Below are positions 833 to 9,385 of a stretch of 64,000 bases of DNA, one piece after another. Each line of letters begins with the position of its first letter. The stretch's first letter is position 1. The translations under genes were made by a program, and so were the position numbers. The notes beneath the pieces were generated by a model. That model saw only the letters and a program-made list of their open reading frames with translations, was not told the DNA's origin and ran no database searches. Source of the DNA: Deltaproteobacteria bacterium (lineage in GTDB: Bacteria; Desulfobacterota; Syntrophobacteria; Syntrophobacterales; Syntrophobacteraceae); contig JAAYVE010000015.1 of NCBI GenBank assembly GCA_012517315.1, positions 1-64,000 on the forward strand, written 5' to 3'.

Positions 833-1324
833 ATGCTTTCGGACGCATTGAAAGAGACGCTGAGAGGGAAGATCGCCCAGGGCGAGCACCCCCGGGAACA
901 CGCGGTGGATGTCATGCTGGAGATCCAGAAGCGCTGCGGCTACATGAGCGACGAAGCCATGGAAGAGGCCGCGACGCTCCTGGGAATGAGCCCCCTGGAA
1001 CTAGAGGAACTGGCCACCTTCTATGACCATATCTACCGGGAACCGGTGGGCAAGTACGTGATCCGTGTGTGTGACAGCGCTGTCTGCTGGATGCACGGTC
1101 ACCTTTCCGTCGTGGATCACCTCACGTCCCTTCTGGGCATCGGCATGGGAGAGACCACGCCCGACGGGCTTTTCACCGTGCTGCCCGTGTGCTGTCTCGG
1201 CTACTGCGACCGCGCGCCGGCCATGATGATCAACCAGAGGATCTTCGGACAGCTCACCCCTGAGAAGATCGACCGGGTCATCCGGAGGCTCAGGGAAGAA
1301 GCGTCCTTTGACGAGGCGGAATGA
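833..1324 (+). CDS. nuoE: NADH-quinone oxidoreductase subunit E
   Basis: This is the 163-residue thioredoxin-fold [2Fe-2S] subunit of the NADH-oxidising arm of complex I, carrying cluster N1a. The four ligands are visible as C80-x4-C85 (CDSAVC) and C121-x3-C125 (CLGYC), in the family's normal arrangement. The N-terminal helical part aligns with the family from near residue 1, so the ATG at 833 is kept although no good ribosome-binding site precedes it. It is the first nuo gene and overlaps nuoF by 4 bp (ATGA), implying translational coupling. NuoE with NuoF and NuoG indicates that this complex I can use NADH, unlike the ferredoxin- or F420-fed forms that lack these subunits. Confidence 0.96.
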   Translation: MLSDALKETLRGKIAQGEHPREHAVDVMLEIQKRCGYMSDEAMEEAATLLGMSPLELEELATFYDHIYREPVGKYVIRVCDSAVCWMHGHLSVVDHLTSLLGIGMGETTPDGLFTVLPVCCLGYCDRAPAMMINQRIFGQLTPEKIDRVIRRLREEASFDEAE

Positions 1325-2610
1325 CGCGCGTGAAGCTCGTGGAGACACCCCAGGTTCTGTTCAGGAACCGCAGGCCCAATCGCATCGCCACGCTGGAAGA
1401 GTATCGTCAGAGCGGCGGCTACGAAGCCCTGGTCAAGGTGGTGGGCCGCTGGTCTCCCGCCGAGATCTGCCGGTGCATCGATGAGTCCGGGCTCAAGGGG
1501 AGGGGAGGAGCCGGCTTTCCCGCATCGAAGAAATGGATGTCCGTTCCCGCCGACGGCGCCTATCCCCGGTATATCGCCGCCAACGCCGATGAAATGGAAC
1601 CGGGCACTTTCAAGGACCGGATGCTCATCCACGTGGACCCTCACGCCGTCATCGAGGGGATGATCCTTGCCGGGTACACCATTTCCGCATCCAAGGGGTA
1701 CATCTTCGTCCGACCCTCCTACGAAAGCAGTGCCGCCATCCTGGAGCAAGAACTGGAGAACGCCCGCCGGGCGGGGTATCTTGGAGAGAACATTCTGGGG
1801 ACGGACTTTTCCTTCGACATCGTGGTGCACCGCAGCGGGGGGCGCTACATCTGCGGGGAAGCCACCGCTTTGCTCAACGCCCTCATGGGCAAGCGTCCCA
1901 ATCCCATCAAACCCCCGCCCTTCCCCACGGTGAAGGGCCTCTGGGACCGCCCTACGGTGGTGAACAACGTGGAAACCCTCGCCAATGTGCCCCCCATTCT
2001 CCGCAATGGTCCCCAGTGGTACAGGAATTTGGCCGAAACGGAGGGAAGCGCGGGGACCAAGCTTTATTGCGTCAGCGGCAGAGTGAACAATCCCGGTTGT
2101 TTCGAACTCCCCATGGGGACGCGGTTCAGTGAGATCCTGGAACGATACGCCGGAGGAATGGCCCCGGGTTATGCATTCAAGGCGTTTCTCCCCGGGGGGG
2201 CTTCCACGTGCTTCCTCACGAAGGCGCACTACCACGTGGCGATGGACTTCGACGCCGTTGCAGCGGCGGGGAGCCGTCTGGGCACGGGGGCCGTCATCGT
2301 TTTCGATGACAGGACCTGCCTGGTGGCGGCCGTCCTCAACCTGACGGAGTTTTTCGCGCGGGAATCGTGCGGCTGGTGCACGCCCTGCCGGGAGGGACTT
2401 CCCTATTTGCGGGACCTCCTGTGGCGCATCGAGCACGGCGAGGGGAAGGAGGCATTCATCCCCATGTTGCGGAGCATGTGCAAACACCTCTGGAACGCCT
2501 ACTGCGCCTTGGCACCCGGGGCCGCCACCCCCGTGGAAGGACTCCTGAAGCACTTCGAGGATGAAGTCCGGGAGCACATTATTCAGAAACGCTGTCCGTT
2601 CAAGGTTTGA
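1321..2610 (+). CDS. nuoF: NADH-quinone oxidoreductase subunit F (FMN/NADH site)
   Basis: The 429-residue flavoprotein binds NADH and FMN and carries cluster N3. The glycine-rich nucleotide site GRGGAGFPASKKW lies at residues 60-72. The [4Fe-4S] ligands are C350, C353 and C356 (CGWCTPC) and C395. Length and motif wording (ESCGWCTPCREG) resemble the proteobacterial single-domain NuoF, not the longer HydB/HoxF-type proteins with extra ferredoxin domains. It overlaps nuoE by 4 bp. A non-nuo cassette begins 134 bp downstream, so the usual nuoF-nuoG adjacency is broken here. Confidence 0.97.
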   Translation: MTRVKLVETPQVLFRNRRPNRIATLEEYRQSGGYEALVKVVGRWSPAEICRCIDESGLKGRGGAGFPASKKWMSVPADGAYPRYIAANADEMEPGTFKDRMLIHVDPHAVIEGMILAGYTISASKGYIFVRPSYESSAAILEQELENARRAGYLGENILGTDFSFDIVVHRSGGRYICGEATALLNALMGKRPNPIKPPPFPTVKGLWDRPTVVNNVETLANVPPILRNGPQWYRNLAETEGSAGTKLYCVSGRVNNPGCFELPMGTRFSEILERYAGGMAPGYAFKAFLPGGASTCFLTKAHYHVAMDFDAVAAAGSRLGTGAVIVFDDRTCLVAAVLNLTEFFARESCGWCTPCREGLPYLRDLLWRIEHGEGKEAFIPMLRSMCKHLWNAYCALAPGAATPVEGLLKHFEDEVREHIIQKRCPFKV

Positions 2611-2703
2611 GAGCAAACGAAGCTCTGGTTTGTTGCTCTTCCGGCCTGCTTTCATGGGGGATGTTTTTGCCCCTGCGTTCTCCCCGTCAAAGGGAACGGG
2701 TAT

Positions 2704-2720
2704 CGGCGGCGTTGCCGCCG
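2704..2720 (+). promoter_or_regulatory. GC-rich hairpin before the split-SbcC cassette
   Basis: CGGCGGC-GTT-GCCGCCG is a perfect 7-bp stem with a 3-nt loop, ending 24 nt before the ATG at 2745 and just upstream of its AAGGGG ribosome-binding site. There is no U-tract, so it is not a classic terminator. It could alter mRNA stability or expression at the nuoF/cassette junction; that role is inference. Confidence 0.35.
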
Positions 2721-2744
2721 TCGGAGTGGAAAAGGGGTGCCGTC

Positions 2745-4331
2745 ATGATCAGACGCCTCATCATCAAGGACTACATGGCCCACGAAAATACCGTCCTGGA
2801 GCTCGCTCCCGGGGTGACGGTCCTCACAGGACCCAACAACACGGGAAAGAGCGCCGTGGTGGAGGCGATTCGGTCCCTTGCCCAGAACCCCGTTCCCCAT
2901 CACGTCATCCGGCATGGCGCCGGCCAGGCGATGGTGCGGGCGGAGCTGGACTCCGGCGAAATCGTCGAATGGGTGAGGAGCCGGGGGAGCACGGTCTACC
3001 ACCTCTACCGCAACGGGAGCGACCTGCGCGGTTCCGAGGGGGAAGGGGAGATCTTTGCCAAGTTCGGGCGGACGCCTCCCCAGGAAGTCCGGGAGGTCCT
3101 GCGCCTGGACCCGGTGGAAACGGAAACGGGATGTATCGATATTCACATCGGAAACCAGCGGTATCCGGTTTTTCTCATCGATCAGACGGGTTCCCAGGCG
3201 GCCGGTTTCTTCGCCGCATCCACCGAAGCGGAGTATCTCCTGCGCATGCAGCAGGCGCTGAAGATAAGGACCGATCGGGCCAAAGGGCGTCGTAAGGAAT
3301 TGGTTCAGGAATGCGAGGAACTGGAGGGGGCGCTCAGGGCACTTGTTCCCCTCGATGCCCTGGAGGAGGAGGTGAGCCGGGCCGAACAGGCGTTCGACAC
3401 CGTTCAGGCGTTGCAGCGGTCCATTCCCGTACTGGACGAATGGATCCGGGTTGCGGAGGAACTGGAGGGGAGCCGTGTGCGGAAGGCTCTCACCTGTGTA
3501 CTTCTCCGCGGGCTGGAGCACCCCCCCGATCCGCTGGAGACGGAGACACTGGAGCGCCTTCTGCAGGACGCCGCCACGACCGCCGCTCAACTGGCCTTAT
3601 TCCTCGAACTCGAACGCACCACTGGAACCCTCCTTCCTCCCCCCTCCACGGCGGAAACCGAGCAACTGGATCTGCTCACCGGCGCCATGGAAAAATCGGT
3701 TGCGTCTCTTCGGCACTATTCCCTGCAGGAGGAAACCCTGGGGGTTTTGACGTCGCCTCCCCAACTCCTCGAGGTGGCGGACCTGGAGCGGGTGCAAGAT
3801 GAAATGAAGAGGGGAGAGGGGCTCCTGAGTGCGGCGAAGGAGGAAGGTGCCGCCCTGGAGGCGCTGATCGAACCGCCTGGGACGATGGACACGCATGTAC
3901 TGGGCGCCCTGGTTTTCCGAATGGAATCGATCCTGAAGGACTGGGAACGTTGTCGCCTGGAAAGAGAGCGGCTGGACGCCCTTCAGGCCCCGGGGGATCT
4001 CCACGGGCTTCATGCCCTCGACCTGCTGGTTCTCGCCATGGAAGAGACGACGGCGCAACTGGAACGGGTGGGAAGGGAAGGACGGCTCTTGGGGGGGCTG
4101 CGTTCCGCTCCGGAACCCCTGGCCAACACCCCCCTGGAAGATCTCATCGGTCAGTTGGAGCGCACCCGACAGGCACGGGACAGTGTGGAAGATGCGTCTC
4201 GCAAGGTTTCACGAATGCTTGCACTCAAGCGGGACGAAGTGGCAACGACTCTGAAAACGGCGGGATTGTGCCCCCTGTGCGGTCATGCCCTTGACATGCA
4301 GCATTTCCTGGAGGCGGGCCATGGCCGGTAG
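2745..4331 (+). CDS. Rad50/SbcC-like ATPase, N-terminal half ending at a zinc hook
   Basis: The 528-residue protein starts as an SMC/Rad50 ATPase does: beta-strand MIRRLIIKDYMAHENT, Walker A GPNNTGKS at 29-36 and a Q-loop-like LIDQTGSQ near 144-151. A long heptad-rich region from about 165 to 500 follows. It ends with CPLC (C509, C512), the CxxC of a zinc hook, 16 residues before the stop. There is no signature motif or Walker B, so it is only half an ATP-binding head. The ATG at 2745 has AAGGGG upstream; an earlier in-frame ATG at 2607 would add 46 residues unlike the family. The missing half appears to be the product of 5650-6315. Likely role (inferred): DNA end processing together with the nuclease encoded next. 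Confidence 0.82.
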   Translation: MIRRLIIKDYMAHENTVLELAPGVTVLTGPNNTGKSAVVEAIRSLAQNPVPHHVIRHGAGQAMVRAELDSGEIVEWVRSRGSTVYHLYRNGSDLRGSEGEGEIFAKFGRTPPQEVREVLRLDPVETETGCIDIHIGNQRYPVFLIDQTGSQAAGFFAASTEAEYLLRMQQALKIRTDRAKGRRKELVQECEELEGALRALVPLDALEEEVSRAEQAFDTVQALQRSIPVLDEWIRVAEELEGSRVRKALTCVLLRGLEHPPDPLETETLERLLQDAATTAAQLALFLELERTTGTLLPPPSTAETEQLDLLTGAMEKSVASLRHYSLQEETLGVLTSPPQLLEVADLERVQDEMKRGEGLLSAAKEEGAALEALIEPPGTMDTHVLGALVFRMESILKDWERCRLERERLDALQAPGDLHGLHALDLLVLAMEETTAQLERVGREGRLLGGLRSAPEPLANTPLEDLIGQLERTRQARDSVEDASRKVSRMLALKRDEVATTLKTAGLCPLCGHALDMQHFLEAGHGR

Positions 4332-5286
4332 CCGGAATTCCATGTCGCCAAGGGCCACCCGGTATGCCGGCATCCTTTTCATCGGAGACCCTCACGTGTG
4401 TGCCTCGCCCCCGGGTTTTCGGCTGGACGACTATGGCCGGGCGGTCATGGAAAAGCTGCGCTTTTGCCTGGAGACCGCCAGGCAGAGGGAGTGCCTTCCG
4501 ATCATCCTGGGCGATCTTTTCCACGTGCCCAGAGACAACCCCAACGGTCTTCTGGTCTCCCTCATGGAACTGTTTCGAGACGAGGTGCCCTGGGTCCTTG
4601 TGGGCAATCATGACAAACACGAGGCCCGCCTGACGCGGGATGTCTCCCTTGCGGTGCTCGCCGCCGCAGGTGTTGTTCGCCTGCTGGAGGATGCGGGCCC
4701 TGTGGAAGTGGTCTGCGTCGCACAGAGGAGGGTGCTCATCGGAGCCGCACCAGACTGGACGAGGCTCCCGGATCGAGTGGAACGCAACGGCGTTGACTGC
4801 GTCATCTGGGTGACCCACCTGGATCTGCGATTTCCCGGTTATGAGGCTGGAAAGACCGACCTCAGGGAAATCCCGGGGATCGACCTCGTCGTCAATGGAC
4901 ACATCCACACCCCCAAGCCTCTTCAGGTGCGGGGCGGGACTATGTGGGCCAATCCCGGGAGCATCGTGCGCATCAGCAGGAGCGTCCAGGCCAGGGACAC
5001 CCGGCCGGCGGTGGTCATCTGGAGACCTGGGGCCGAAGGGCTTGAAACCGTGCCGGTCCCTCACGCGCCGTTCCACGAGGTCTTCCCGCCCCTGGACGAG
5101 GGCTATGAGGAGTCGCGGGAAACGGTCGACGAATCCATGTTCATCCGGGGCCTGGAAAACCTGGCCATACGTAAGACCAGCGAAGGGGTCGGTCTCCGGT
5201 CTTTTCTCGAAATGAACCTGAATCGGGAAGACCCCGTTGACCGCCTTGTCTATGAGCTATACGAGGAGATCATGACCGATGGCTAA
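4321..5286 (+). CDS. Mre11/SbcD-like metallophosphoesterase
   Basis: The 321-residue protein has the calcineurin-like phosphoesterase motifs in order: GDPH near 23, LGDLFH near 65, GNHD near 98, a THLD histidine and GHIH near 198. Mre11/SbcD nucleases carry the same di-metal ligand set. The C-terminal 80 residues, after PGSIVR, would be the capping and ATPase-contact region. The ATG at 4321 has GGAGG six bases upstream and overlaps the previous gene by 11 bp; longer in-frame starts lack this signal. Being wedged between an ATPase N-half and C-half strongly suggests one complex with them. A small-molecule phosphodiesterase is the alternative from motifs alone. Confidence 0.85.
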   Translation: MAGSRNSMSPRATRYAGILFIGDPHVCASPPGFRLDDYGRAVMEKLRFCLETARQRECLPIILGDLFHVPRDNPNGLLVSLMELFRDEVPWVLVGNHDKHEARLTRDVSLAVLAAAGVVRLLEDAGPVEVVCVAQRRVLIGAAPDWTRLPDRVERNGVDCVIWVTHLDLRFPGYEAGKTDLREIPGIDLVVNGHIHTPKPLQVRGGTMWANPGSIVRISRSVQARDTRPAVVIWRPGAEGLETVPVPHAPFHEVFPPLDEGYEESRETVDESMFIRGLENLAIRKTSEGVGLRSFLEMNLNREDPVDRLVYELYEEIMTDG

Positions 5287-5623
5287 GAAAGAGGTGGCAG
5301 CCCGGGAAGGATCGGCCAAGGGGTCTGTTGAGGACCAGAAGCTGCAGGAGCGATTGGCGGAGCTCCGGGAGGAGTACAACAGGCTGCACGAGAAGAAGAT
5401 TGCCACGGAACGGGACCGGCAGAACCTGGAAGAGCGTCTCAAGGAGTTGCGTGAGCAGGCGGAGCGGGAATACGGGACGAGTGACCTGGAGGAGCTGCGC
5501 CGGCTTCTGGACGAGCGCCGACGTGAAAACGAACGCATGGTGGCGGAATATCAGCAGCACGTGGAAAGCATCCGCGCAAGGCTTCGGGAAATCGAGAAGA
5601 CCGGTTCCGAGGAGTCGTCCTGA
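5279..5623 (+). CDS. Small coiled-coil protein of the split Rad50/Mre11 cassette
   Basis: This 114-residue, very Glu/Arg/Lys-rich protein has heptad-type spacing from about residue 18 to 108 and no other recognisable domain, transmembrane segment or cysteine. It overlaps the nuclease gene by 8 bp, so it is almost certainly co-translated. The N-half ATPase ends at the hook and the C-half has little coiled coil, so this peptide may supply part of the returning strand of the antiparallel coiled coil, or act as an adaptor. That is inference. I do not recognise it as a named family. Confidence 0.75.
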   Translation: MAKKEVAAREGSAKGSVEDQKLQERLAELREEYNRLHEKKIATERDRQNLEERLKELREQAEREYGTSDLEELRRLLDERRRENERMVAEYQQHVESIRARLREIEKTGSEESS

Positions 5624-5649
5624 GGGCGACGTGTTGAGAAGGGTGAATC

Positions 5650-6315
5650 ATGGATGAAATGAGTGGGGGCCGGTTGGAGGTCGCGTCTCCCATTCCCCTT
5701 CGCAGGGGCGTGGACCGGCTTCGCTGGCGACGGGGGATGCTGGAGGAGAACCTTGGGAAAAAGAGGGCCGCCCTGGCGGAAATCGACGCTTTCCTGGAGA
5801 TGCAGCCCAAGGTTGCCGAAAGGCTCGACGAACTGTCCAGGAATCTCTTCGGGGACATTCTGCGGGAGATCGAGCTCAATCTCACCTACGCCTTGAGGGA
5901 AATCCTGGGACAGGATCTCCGGGTGGTCTCCCACCGGGAGATGAAAAACCGGAAGATGCACGTGACCTTCAGCATTGAAAGGGACGGCAGACCGGAGGAT
6001 ATCCTCACGGGCCAGGGGGGGTCGGTGTGCAATGTCATTTCCGTGGGGTTGCGCCTCATTGCCCTCTCCCAGTTGGACGAGCGCCAACACAGGCGCTTCC
6101 TCGTGCTGGATGAGCAGGACTGCTGGCTTCGCCCCGACTTGGTTCCCCGGCTCATGTCCATCATCCACACCATCGCGAGAAAGCTTCAGTTCCAGGTGCT
6201 TGTCATCAGCCATCACAGCGTGGACCTTTTCAGAGATCACGCGGACCGGGTTTACCGCATCCAGCCGCCCGTCAAGCGAGGGGACGGGGTGAGGGTGGAA
6301 TGCATGGAGGGTTGA
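5650..6315 (+). CDS. Rad50/SbcC-like ATPase, C-terminal half (signature, Walker B)
   Basis: The 221-residue protein has a short coiled-coil N-terminus (about 25-75), then an ABC-ATPase C-lobe: signature-like TGQGGS at 120-125, Walker B FLVLDE at 150-155, a D-loop region after it and an H-loop histidine in ISHH near 188. It has no Walker A, so it can form a working ATP site only with another lobe, most simply the N-half encoded at 2745-4331. The signature is unusual (GQGGS instead of LSGGE/Q). It follows the coiled-coil gene by 26 bp and is followed after 133 bp by nuoG. Confidence 0.82.
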   Translation: MDEMSGGRLEVASPIPLRRGVDRLRWRRGMLEENLGKKRAALAEIDAFLEMQPKVAERLDELSRNLFGDILREIELNLTYALREILGQDLRVVSHREMKNRKMHVTFSIERDGRPEDILTGQGGSVCNVISVGLRLIALSQLDERQHRRFLVLDEQDCWLRPDLVPRLMSIIHTIARKLQFQVLVISHHSVDLFRDHADRVYRIQPPVKRGDGVRVECMEG

Positions 6316-6448
6316 ACGGTCCGCCTTTTCGCTCCGTTACGGAAGAACGGCGGAACCGGCGGCAGGAAATGGAAAGGCGGGCGGAAAAGCGCGGAAAAGC
6401 GGGCGCGGACGGCCCACCGGGGACGGCTATCAGGAGTGTCGCGGTCTC

Positions 6449-8962
6449 ATGCCCAGACTGATCATCGATGAAAGGGAAATCGAGGTCCCCCCGGGCACCA
6501 AGGTAATCGACGCGGCGGAGCGTCTGGGGATCCTGATTCCGCGCTTTTGTTACCACGAAGGGCTGGGGGCCGTGGGAGCCTGCCGCATGTGTGCGGTGCA
6601 GTTCGTGGAAGGACCGGTGAAAGGCCTCCAGATGAGCTGCATGGTGGATGCTCAGGACGGCATGGTGGTCTCCACCTCCCATGAAGAGGCGGTGGAATTC
6701 CGGCGTTTCATCATCGAATGCCTTATGCTCAACCATCCCCATGATTGCCCCGTGTGTGACGAGGGGGGGCAGTGCCTGCTCCAGGACGAGACGGTCTCCG
6801 GAGGCCACGGATTGCGGCGCTACCAGGGAAAGAAAAGGACATACCGCGATCAGTATCTCGGCGAACTCATCGCCCACGAAATGAACCGTTGCATTCACTG
6901 TTACCGCTGTTCCCGCTTCTACCAGGAGTTTTCGGGGTATCGGGACCTGGGTCCCCTGCAGATTGCCAACCGCGTCTTCTATGGCCGCTTCAAGGACGGT
7001 CCCCTGGAGAGCCCTTTTTCGGGAAACCTGGTGGACATCTGCCCCACCGGTGTGTACACGGACAAACCGTCCCGCTACAAGGCCAGGCGATGGGATCTTC
7101 AGCGGACGCCGTCCGTCTGCATCCATTGTTCCCTGGGTTGCAACACCGTCGCCAACGCCCGATACCGGGAAGTGGTCCGCGTGGAAGCCCGATTCAGCGG
7201 GGAGGTGAACGGCCATTTCATCTGCGACCGGGGGCGATTCGGGTTTCCGTACACGAACCTCCCTGGTCGGCCGAGAACGGCCCGGACTGCGGGGGGGGAG
7301 TGCTCACAGGGGGAGGCCGTGGCCGCCGCAGCGGAAAAACTACGGGAAATCAGCTCGACTTTCGGCCCTCAAGCCGTGGCGTGCTTCGGTTCATCCCGCA
7401 ACAGCCTGGAAACCCAGTGCATGCTGAAGAGAATCTGCCGACTCCAGGGCTGGCAAGTGCCCGGTTTCTTCGTGGATCCGGCGCTTGAAAGGAGAGTGCG
7501 TGCGGCGGTCTCTCTCCTGGATGCTTCAGCGGGGGTTTCCATGAGAGAGGTGGAAAGGGCGGACTGTGTGGTGGCCGCAGGCGTGGACCCGGTGAACGAA
7601 GCCCCAATGCTCGCCCTTGCCATGCGCCAGGCTTTCAGGAGGGGAGCCGAAATCCTGGTGGCGGATCCTCGGCCGATTTTTCTGCCTTTCCCTTTCATCC
7701 ATGTCCCCGTCTCCATGGAGCGGATGGATTCGTTCCTTGAGGGGCTGGCGCGCCTTGCGGGAGAGAGTTCCGACGGGACGGGGGTGAGAGAAGCCGACCT
7801 GCTTTCACAAATCGTTCAAAATGGAGGCCTGGCCTCCTCTGATCTCCCACTCCCGGTCTCCTTTTGCCGGGCCCTCTTTGGGAGTCAGAATCCTGTTGTC
7901 CTGTGCGGGACGGAATGTGTGAGGGAGTCGACCCTTCCCGCTGCGGCCGCGTTGGCCCGAGACCTGCGGAAAGGGAGGGATCGGGCGGGGCTGCTGTATG
8001 TGCTCCCGGGCGCCAATGCTTTCGGAGCGGGGCTTTTGAACTCGCAGGGCCATCCAGGGTTTTCCCGGCTGTTGGAATCTGTGGAAAGTGGCTCCGTTCG
8101 GGCTCTGATCGTCACCGAGAGTGATCCGTTGAACGATTTCTGCCATAGGGATCGCCTCCTTGGGACATTGGGGAAACTGGATCTTCTTGTCGTCATGGAT
8201 TTCCTGGACTCGGAGACGGCCCGCATGGCCCACGTGTTCCTGCCCACCACCACGCATTTCGAGTCGGGTTCCTGCTTCGTCAACCACGAGGGGAGACTGC
8301 AGTACGCGGAAGCCGTGCATCACGGTGGAATTCCCATCGAGCAGGCGGGTGGCGGAAGTCATCCCCCCAGGGTCTATCGCGGTGACATTCCTGGGGAGGG
8401 GCCCAAGGCGGCCTGGGTCATCCTGGCTGAGTTGGGGCGCACTCTGGGAATTCCCGATCGGGATCTCCTGGGTCTTGGCCCCTGGTCCCTCATCGGGGAG
8501 GAGATTCCGTCCCTCAAACGACTGGAGGGGACGGTATTCCCACCGGAGGGGATCCGCATTCTTTCCGACGGGGATCCGGTGCAGTGGGTTCAGGGCCCTG
8601 AGGCCAGGGACGGCGAAGACGATCGCGGTGCGGTTCCCCCGGGGGATTTTTTCGAGATCCTTCTGACCCATTGGACCTTCGGGACCGAAGAGCTTTCATC
8701 TCGTTCGGGGCCGCTCCAGAAGGTGGAAAAGGAGCCCTATGGTATGATGCATTCGGACGATGCCCGGGTGTTGGGGTTCAGTGAAGGGGACCGGATCGTC
8801 TTGTCCCTCGAGGGCGGTCAAATCCGGTTCAGGCTCTCCGTGGCGGACCGGATGGGTCGTGGCGTCCTCGTCTTGCCACGGCACCGGAAGCTGGCCTGGA
8901 GGAATATCCCGGAAATGCCCTGCTTCGTGCCCCGGGATCGGATCCGGAGAGAAGATTCCTGA
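6449..8962 (+). CDS. nuoG: NADH-quinone oxidoreductase subunit G
   Basis: The 837-residue iron-sulfur subunit of the peripheral arm carries a [2Fe-2S] ferredoxin domain (C34, C45, C48, C64), the His-Cys cluster N5 (H96, C100, C103, C109), N4 (C148, C151, C154, C198) and the ligands of the extra cluster N7 (C224, C227, C231, C259). A molybdopterin-oxidoreductase-like domain follows, with a C-terminal region comparable to formate dehydrogenases but without a catalytic Cys/Sec that I can see. N7 is present in E. coli-type NuoG and absent in mitochondria. The start has CAGGAG upstream. It is separated from nuoF by the four-gene split-SbcCD insert and followed by nuoA after 12 bp. Confidence 0.96.
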   Translation: MPRLIIDEREIEVPPGTKVIDAAERLGILIPRFCYHEGLGAVGACRMCAVQFVEGPVKGLQMSCMVDAQDGMVVSTSHEEAVEFRRFIIECLMLNHPHDCPVCDEGGQCLLQDETVSGGHGLRRYQGKKRTYRDQYLGELIAHEMNRCIHCYRCSRFYQEFSGYRDLGPLQIANRVFYGRFKDGPLESPFSGNLVDICPTGVYTDKPSRYKARRWDLQRTPSVCIHCSLGCNTVANARYREVVRVEARFSGEVNGHFICDRGRFGFPYTNLPGRPRTARTAGGECSQGEAVAAAAEKLREISSTFGPQAVACFGSSRNSLETQCMLKRICRLQGWQVPGFFVDPALERRVRAAVSLLDASAGVSMREVERADCVVAAGVDPVNEAPMLALAMRQAFRRGAEILVADPRPIFLPFPFIHVPVSMERMDSFLEGLARLAGESSDGTGVREADLLSQIVQNGGLASSDLPLPVSFCRALFGSQNPVVLCGTECVRESTLPAAAALARDLRKGRDRAGLLYVLPGANAFGAGLLNSQGHPGFSRLLESVESGSVRALIVTESDPLNDFCHRDRLLGTLGKLDLLVVMDFLDSETARMAHVFLPTTTHFESGSCFVNHEGRLQYAEAVHHGGIPIEQAGGGSHPPRVYRGDIPGEGPKAAWVILAELGRTLGIPDRDLLGLGPWSLIGEEIPSLKRLEGTVFPPEGIRILSDGDPVQWVQGPEARDGEDDRGAVPPGDFFEILLTHWTFGTEELSSRSGPLQKVEKEPYGMMHSDDARVLGFSEGDRIVLSLEGGQIRFRLSVADRMGRGVLVLPRHRKLAWRNIPEMPCFVPRDRIRREDS

Positions 8963-8974
8963 GGGGGAGGTTTC

Positions 8975-9385
8975 ATGGAACCTGTTGTGTCCGCCGGAGC
9001 GCTGTCACCCTGGGAACCCGGCGTTTTCGCCCTTTTCGTCTACGGGTTGTTGATTTGTGTCTTTGTGGGGTCCCAGCTTTTCATTGCAGGCTGGCTCGGT
9101 GAAAAGAAACCCAGTGCGGAGAAATCCAGACCTTACGAATGCGGGGTCATCCCCACGGGTTCTGCACGACTGCGCTATCCCGTTCCGTTTTACCTTGTGG
9201 CGGTTTTCTTTCTCATTTTCGACGTGGAAGGAGCGTATATCCTGACGTGGGCGGTTTCCTACGAGGAACTGGGATGGATCGGATGGGCGCAGATGTCGTT
9301 TTTCATCGCCGTCCTGCTTTTGGGGTTGGCGTATCTCTGGGTGAAGGGAGGACTCGATTGGATGCCGCTTCCAAGGAAAGAATGA
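8975..9385 (+). CDS. nuoA: NADH-quinone oxidoreductase subunit A
   Basis: The 136-residue membrane subunit has three hydrophobic helices (about 17-40, 72-95 and 103-123). Between helices 1 and 2 is the conserved loop with the Cys of RPYECG and the [10 protein letters not shown] segment; [11 protein letters not shown] carries the conserved acidic residues of helix 2. It lies next to the quinone-access region. A GAGGGGGAGG-type ribosome-binding site precedes the ATG. It overlaps the nuoBCD start by 4 bp. Confidence 0.95.

Follow-up and report, generated by a model that had tools for sequence, protein, structure and literature searches.

Rad50 is normally described as a single chain that runs out and back in a long antiparallel coil and so brings its two ends together. 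Does this ATPase have to be one chain, or can its head be built from two separately encoded halves? The question is raised by an operon in the first 64,000 nucleotides (nt) of contig JAAYVE010000015.1 (assembly GCA_012517315.1) from a deltaproteobacterium of the Syntrophobacteraceae, a stretch referred to here as the window. At positions 2745-6315 four open reading frames (ORFs) follow each other on the same strand and encode, in this order, an ATP-binding cassette (ABC) N-lobe protein (N-half), an Mre11/SbcD-type metallophosphoesterase (MPE), a 114-residue coiled-coil protein (CC) and an ABC C-lobe protein (C-half). A preliminary description of the locus had proposed that the two halves form one SbcCD-like head split over two genes. 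Their complementary invariant motifs, their N-lobe and C-lobe folds, their co-occurrence, the retention of unlinked halves within one genome and natural fusions in reversed order all support this proposal, and we consider it probable, at roughly 80%, that the operon encodes a split Mre11-Rad50 (SbcCD-like) machine that processes or tethers DNA ends.

The features of the operon are the following, the motif names (Q-loop etc.) being those that we take to apply:

2745-4331, + strand: N-half, 528 amino acids (aa); ABC N-lobe, base helices, arm of 39-residue repeats and C-terminal zinc-hook motif
2829-2852, + strand: Walker A motif GPNNTGKS, N-half residues 29-36
3156-3158, + strand: Q-loop glutamine Q138 of the N-half, invariant in 56 rows
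3543-4262, + strand: arm of the N-half; helix-loop units with a period of about 39 residues
4269-4280, + strand: CPLC zinc-hook motif, N-half residues 509-512 of 528
4321-5286, + strand: MPE, 321 aa; Mre11/SbcD-type metallophosphoesterase (PF00149) with conserved C-terminal region
5279-5623, + strand: CC, 114-aa coiled-coil protein with conserved YGTxDxxEL turn
5650-6315, + strand: C-half, 221 aa; 72-residue helix followed by the ABC C-lobe
6010-6027, + strand: signature-like motif GQGGSV, C-half residues 121-126
6097-6126, + strand: Walker B motif FLVLDEQDCW, C-half residues 150-159; catalytic Glu kept
6208-6216, + strand: H-loop SHH, C-half residues 187-189, invariant

All four ORFs of the preliminary description are present with the motifs claimed for them, and those of N-half, C-half and MPE are invariant or highly conserved across relatives. 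The genes for N-half and MPE overlap by 11 nt and those for MPE and CC by 8 nt, and 26 nt separate CC from the C-half, which is single-copy in this 4.4 Mb genome. A promoter and terminator scan gave nothing above chance.

Two complementary lobes and their co-occurrence

Each half carries its own set of strictly conserved residues. An alignment of 56 N-halves (the window and 55 loci; the near-duplicate L005 and shorter ORFs were left out) shows no variation at G29, N31, N32, G34, K35, S36 and Q138, and conservation of 90% or more at M1, C509 and C512. In 79 aligned C-halves (the window and 78 of 80 loci, without L005 and L018) the invariant residues are G121, G123, G124, V126, L153 to W159, S187, H188 and H189, i.e. 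they include D154 and the catalytic E155 of Walker B, while Q122 and S125 are at least 90% conserved; the resulting signature, GQGGSV, deviates from the textbook LSGGE. Neither chain alone is an ABC ATPase, yet both motif sets are invariant, suggesting that the halves meet.

The folds agree with this assignment. By sequence, the C-half profile gave only weak SMC and ABC matches plus chance helical ones in the PDB, and thus fold comparison was used instead; Pfam has no family above cut-off in C-half or CC. The AlphaFold2 model of the C-half (pLDDT 90.6) consists of a single 72-residue helix and a C-lobe, and its top Foldseek matches are C-lobe chains of Rad50 and SMC proteins, e.g. 9a9j_B, 5h66_B, 3qkr_B and 1f2u_B/D. 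The N-half exceeds the Pfam cut-off for AAA_23 (35.3 vs 27) and barely that for AAA_27 (23.7 vs 22 bits, residues 2-83 only). With its model (pLDDT 77.5, pTM 0.35) Foldseek ranks the N-lobe chain 1f2u_C first and Smc6 second, 1f2u_A/C being matched, and VIA-align, which aligns chiefly residues 1-199, does not discriminate between Rad50, SMC and RecF. As 1f2u lists its lobes as separate chains, a two-chain head is feasible.

The layout recurs widely. One profile scan of genome contigs found 105 C-half relatives, 80 of which were kept; they span seven phyla (Desulfobacterota, Planctomycetota, Bacillota, Sumerlaeota, Poribacteria, Chlamydiota and Spirochaetes), with L068 labelled Proteobacteria. 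Sixty-four of the 80 loci, in answer to the gene-neighbourhood search proposed earlier, show all four genes on one strand and in the same order, which excludes chance and refutes a frameshift or assembly error as the origin of the split. Another eight hold only MPE, CC and C-half, seven of them truncated by the contig start, and in the remaining eight the C-half stands alone, twice at a contig edge (L043, L064). For four lone C-halves a trio of N-half, MPE and CC lies elsewhere in the same genome (L034/L098, L066/L103, L020/L108 and L037/L099). No C-half follows the trio within 1.3 kb and 4 kb in the genomes of L034 and L066 (L215, L216), and the genome of L020 (G159) has one C-half only; in that of L037 (G161) the contig stops where the trio does (L217), and a second C-half may lie beyond. 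Two degenerate copies were also seen. In G194 (L181 1462-2238; also L213) N-half and C-half parts share one 259-aa ORF from which the Walker A and signature regions are gone, and neither MPE nor CC was matched in the stretches searched. G258:C3:305745-305975 is a second, partial copy of the C-half that is interrupted by two TGA stops in frame.

In the family Desulfovibrionaceae (119 genomes; N-half threshold E ≤1e-20; SbcD as TIGR00619 at E ≤1e-12) the C-half occurs in 47 genomes and the N-half in 45, all of them among the 47 (Fisher p 8e-31, uncorrected for descent). The two remaining cases are contig edges, in G159 (trio L108) and in G309, where the contig begins inside the MPE gene (L195). 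A C-half widespread without an N-half, or relatives with both in one gene, had been named as signs against a split head. The former is confined to few exceptions, and the latter was seen solely as reversed-order phage fusions, none of the 80 bacterial loci having an ORF that matches both halves.

Moreover, in this single family the split system and SbcD exclude each other. SbcD was found in 34 genomes, 21 times above cut-off, and in none of the 47 with a C-half (above cut-off 0/47 vs 21/72, p 9e-6; all SbcD, p 7e-10). As to the matches examined, the family scan identifies one of the strong ones (L197) as an SbcD-SbcC pair, and another (L198) looks like such a pair; the weaker L199 and L208 look YhaO/YhaN-like, and L200 gave no clear picture. 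The genome of the window, 99% complete, has no SbcD match at E ≤0.001. On its contig C13 (L193 2207-5608) lies an SbcC-like 1133-aa gene with a CPLC motif and no SbcD gene beside it; the MPE of the split system might serve this protein.

Repeat arm, zinc-hook motif and accessory proteins

Between lobe and hook the N-half is built from repeats. In its model the arm helices comprise residues 267-294, 306-333, 345-372, 383-412, 422-450 and 462-506, i.e. 28-30 residues each with a longer final one; the connecting loops measure about 9-11 residues and mostly contain PP. With a pTM of 0.35 the model gives no reliable arm topology as to helices end to end or hairpins. Among 118 PP-to-PP spacings in the 56 N-halves, 99 measure 38-40 residues, 12 measure 74-79 and three 116-117. 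Counted from a fixed motif in the head, the hook lies exactly 237, 276, 315 or 354 residues away in 44 of 53 N-halves (three rows lacking one of the anchors were left out) and at most 8 residues off a 39-residue step in the others. The best period, 39.0, has a concentration of 0.937, which 0 of 2000 uniform random sets reached, a control that ignores the relatedness of the rows and is not a strict probability. These steps suggest that arms lengthen and shorten by 39-residue units, single units included, and thus that the arm is modular and made by the N-half alone. The repeat consensus, derived from the 219 units that contain PP, has a hydrophobic stripe in each unit, so that the unit must pack against something, be it neighbouring units, the partner arm or CC.

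Every N-half ORF except L031 (63 of 64) has a CxxC motif among its final 75 residues, and the profile of the hook segment finds the hook chains of Rad50 (6zff, E 3.2e-6; 1l8d, E 6.1e-5), pointing to a zinc hook with predicted zinc binding. That the chain is broken exactly at the hook, as had been claimed, holds in so far as the N-half ends 16 residues past it. The usual return coil has, however, not merely moved to another gene: none of matching length is found in the C-half, whose model has only the one 72-residue helix, although CC might supply part of one.

CC is present in 72 of the 80 loci (64 with all four genes, eight with MPE-CC-C) and is conserved around its YGTxDxxEL turn, which by eye is flanked by two helix-like stretches. 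It may be an added subunit rather than a piece of Rad50. The MPE contains Pfam Metallophos (PF00149). Its single sequence gave no PDB match at E ≤0.1; with a profile the best matches are Mre11/SbcD structures (E about 2e-13). All 22 rows chosen for comparison, 18 from bacteria and four from phages, keep D23, H25, D65, N96, H97, H166, H194 and H196, consistent with a predicted nuclease activity.

Split and permuted relatives in phages

A viral scan with the bacterial C-half profile found no relative, while the N-half profile gave 31 loci, near-identical contigs being counted separately; L164, L165 and L167 were set aside as they resemble other ATPase families. Within the fetched stretches 14 of the 31 have an MPE and eight a separate C-half. 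Microcystis phage Mvi-JY20 (L136) has the bacterial gene order, i.e. N-half, MPE, a 94-aa coiled-coil ORF and C-half, with overlapping genes; a small search with the CC profile detected its 94-aa ORF at E 1.8e-4, whereas a larger one did not at 1e-3. In Bacillus phage vB_BboS-125 the N-half is followed by a gene with an AP2 domain, a 78-aa ORF, the C-half, a further ORF and an unannotated MPE, the last being a Mre11-like phosphoesterase ORF at L084 8247-9224, after the split ATPase genes. The uncultured phage LR745208 (L135) has N-half, MPE and C-half inside 9 kb. Phage contig L158 holds the same three together with RecD2, RecA, RuvC and PD-(D/E)XK genes, and in Tunturi_5 N-half and MPE lie close to UvsX, SSB and RuvC genes, with no C-half in the stretch examined. 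Such neighbourhoods, L158 in particular, point to replication and recombination.

The phage halves are annotated as exonuclease, ATPase, chromosome segregation protein or hypothetical protein. The 'exonuclease' phrog_16465 matches N-half residues 2-235 (E 1.8e-21) and the 'ATPase' phrog_15167 C-half residues 73-190 (E 4.7e-5); they are two separate families whose descriptions are silent on pairing, permuted fusions and the four-gene operon. More stand-alone C-halves may exist, as three viral proteins of 193-219 aa in BFVD (A0A6J7XLB5, A0A516LLJ2 and A0A8S5ME05) have the C-half fold, one of them being annotated as chromosome partition protein.

In five viral contigs (L161, L162, L163, L169 and L172, of which L162, L163 and L172 are closely related) a single ORF of 604-685 aa contains C-lobe, N-lobe, arm and a C-terminal CxxC, the C-lobe lying within residues 14-215 and the N-lobe with GPNNxGKS from about residue 228-253 onward. 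By their sequences these ORFs are circularly permuted Rad50 proteins with the putative hook as a free C-terminus, in the order opposite to that of normal Rad50, and they are Rosetta-stone evidence that the lobes pair. As the training set of the viral C profile included the fusions, the bacterial C-half profile is the fairer witness; by itself it detects the C-lobe in L161 (E 9e-12), L162 (2e-7) and L163 (3e-7). In a C-lobe tree of 38 chosen rows the bacterial, the fused and seven phage-split sequences each form a well-supported group, while long branches make the placement of three phage-split rows and of the deep joins uncertain. Directly upstream of the fusion in L169 lies an ORF with Mre11-like motifs. 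Near the permuted Rad50 of L161, an ORF at 3438-5363 starts like a polynucleotide-kinase P-loop and later carries a GDVHG...GNHE phosphoesterase motif.

Setting, possible function and known systems

The four genes interrupt a nuo-type operon (window 833-9385) between ORFs that we take to be nuoF-like (1321-2610) and nuoG-like (6449-8962), an insertion site shared with L003 and seen in no other locus compared. Upstream of the nuoE-like gene, about 2 kb from the four-gene operon, positions 1-591 form a CRISPR-like array of eight copies of the repeat GTTTTCCGGGGCGTGAACGCCCCGGCCTCATTGAAGC with a spacing of 73-76 nt, the last copy being altered at its end. In the neighbour clustering, genes that are presumably mutM- and murJ-like occur upstream at seven loci each, and the neighbours in the loci examined, five Desulfovibrio-type loci more closely, appear to be housekeeping genes.

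Based on these findings we propose that N-half and C-half would associate into one ABC head and that two heads would sandwich ATP, each site combining Walker A and Q-loop of one N-half with the signature of the other head's C-half. The head would stand on the base helices of the N-half (residues 162-255) and the 72-residue helix of the C-half, the N-half alone would supply the rest of the arm as 39-residue helix-loop units, and the C-terminal CPxC hooks would join two arms via zinc. The MPE may sit at the head base as an ATP-gated Mre11-type nuclease, and CC probably braces the arm base or the nuclease. In bacteria such a complex may process or tether DNA ends in chromosome maintenance, standing in for SbcCD; in phages it may act in replication and recombination.

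An arm that needs no return strand would allow the chain to be split, or to be rejoined in reverse order as in the phages. We lean towards a separate class of Mre11-Rad50 with a two-polypeptide head, a self-made modular arm instead of the antiparallel coil and a zinc hook at a free C-terminus. Such a class may have moved between bacteria and large phages and may have taken the place of SbcCD in some lineages. If so, the head would need only the two lobes, and arm and hook could be built by one strand. This would break the rule of Rad50 as a single chain across phyla, with the lobe order even reversed in the phage proteins, and the 39-residue units would be a natural ruler for testing the effect of arm length. 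In SbcD-less genomes that carry it, the operon would also be a candidate source of the end-processing nuclease that is otherwise missing.

Several observations weigh against a split Mre11-Rad50 machine. A main weakness is the patchy distribution, with 6 strong matches among 148 genomes of the phylum, the present one included, and 9 positive among 119 Pirellulaceae genomes; the activity itself is a prediction from sequence. In G160 and G162 a C-half is present and the N-half trio was not found, and in G073 (L071) and G106 MPE-CC-C have no adjacent N-half, the rest of these two genomes not having been searched. In phage Magritte the C-half is gene 2 and the N-half gene 155, far apart and without MPE in the two stretches examined. 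The N-half profile finds SMC6 (E 9e-10) narrowly before Rad50 (E 4e-9) in the PDB, and the models cover single chains only, with weak loops besides the low pTM in the N-half. The exclusion of SbcD may follow clades and not function, because many of the SbcD-positive genomes are small. The Pirellulaceae are uninformative in this respect, as only 5 of 119 genomes have SbcD above cut-off (0/9 split-positive vs 5/110) and the weaker matches examined are YhaO-like, a variant also present in split-positive genomes: at E ≤1e-6 SbcD is found in 3/9 split-positive vs 96/110 other genomes, and at 1e-8, a cut picked afterwards, in 0/9 vs 96/110.

The preliminary description left the choice between a repair nuclease and a defence system. 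Anti-phage defence, in which the split head would sense foreign DNA ends or structures and the MPE would destroy the DNA, in the manner of Lamassu, Gabija and comparable systems of ATPase and nuclease, would fit the patchy spread and the nearby CRISPR array; in PADLOC, at E ≤1, the N-half has matches to 83 families and the C-half to 15, and mad3, which also counts against an Mre11-Rad50 machine, weakly matches both (N-half 1-206, C-half 137-211; E 1e-5 and 4e-6). Among the 25 PADLOC matches listed for the N-half, however, all except mad3 are confined to residues 1-89, the shared P-loop region, and the MPE has no PADLOC match, so that a complete defence system known to PADLOC was rejected. LmuB of Lamassu, according to the accessible part of PMC10586767, is a Rad50-like ATPase of one chain of about 650 aa, often with a CPxCG hook, and has an E-to-Q exchange in Walker B; the split system is two-chain and retains the Walker B Glu, and among the matches listed the LmuB models reach N-half residues 2-89 only, CC weakly and the C-half not at all. 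Housekeeping-like neighbours, the carriage of the system by a phage inside a recombination gene cluster and its presence in 47 of 119 Desulfovibrionaceae, where SbcD is excluded, also speak against defence, which we consider improbable. Repair and replication are thus favoured.

Still less probable is a structural SMC-like tether whose MPE is regulatory or inactive and leaves DNA uncut. The sequence and fold of the N-lobe are indeed about equally near to SMC6, SMC and Rad50, but the hook segment resembles Rad50 hook domains and the MPE keeps its metal ligands in bacteria and phages alike. A broken or degenerating canonical sbcCD, e.g. by frameshift, assembly error or pseudogene formation, is hardly conceivable: the decayed copy in G194 shows that such loss occurs in a relative, but the layout is shared by 64 of 80 loci over several phyla with invariant motifs, and the C-half has no return coil of matching length.

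As to known systems, the published ABC-ATPase classification of Krishnan et al. (2020) might mention parts of the split system. In the open-access literature, subscription journals and bioRxiv being outside the search, neither a split or permuted Rad50 nor a bacterial four-gene layout of this kind was found, in keeping with the preliminary description; the accessible parts of PMC7824862, PMC12153180, PMC3175470, PMC1193525 and PMC10586767 describe no split or permuted Rad50. Mimivirus and others have Mre11/Rad50 fusion proteins in which nuclease and ATPase are joined (PMC3175470); this is also a gene rearrangement, whereas the present system has a divided ATPase, or in phages a permuted one.

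Like the split system, what we take to be the YhaO-YhaN pair, an AAA_27 ATPase and a phosphoesterase, places a Rad50-like ATPase beside an Mre11-like enzyme, and the N-half barely passes the AAA_27 cut-off. The ATPase of that pair is, however, one chain of about 1000-1200 aa, whereas the N-half stops at 528 aa, just past its hook, and no single long AAA_27 ATPase is encoded in the operon. In three Pirellulaceae examined (L204-L206) a YhaO-YhaN relative coexists with the split system.

Closest is SbcCD/Mre11-Rad50, with which the operon shares the ABC head with five motifs, the CPxC hook and an adjoining gene for an Mre11-type nuclease, although none of its proteins passes the NCBIfam cut-offs for SbcC, SbcD or Rad50. 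Walker A, Q-loop, signature, Walker B and H-loop are all present, only across two chains and with a deviant signature; the CxxC hook is there as a motif, and the phosphoesterase has the full set of metal ligands. In contrast, the head consists of two polypeptides not joined through a coiled coil, the hook lies at the C-terminus, an outgoing and returning antiparallel coil was not found, and a 39-residue-repeat arm and an extra 114-aa protein are added. As the single-chain head and the return coil are lacking, we class the system as a variant that would work like Mre11-Rad50, not as a plain member of that family.

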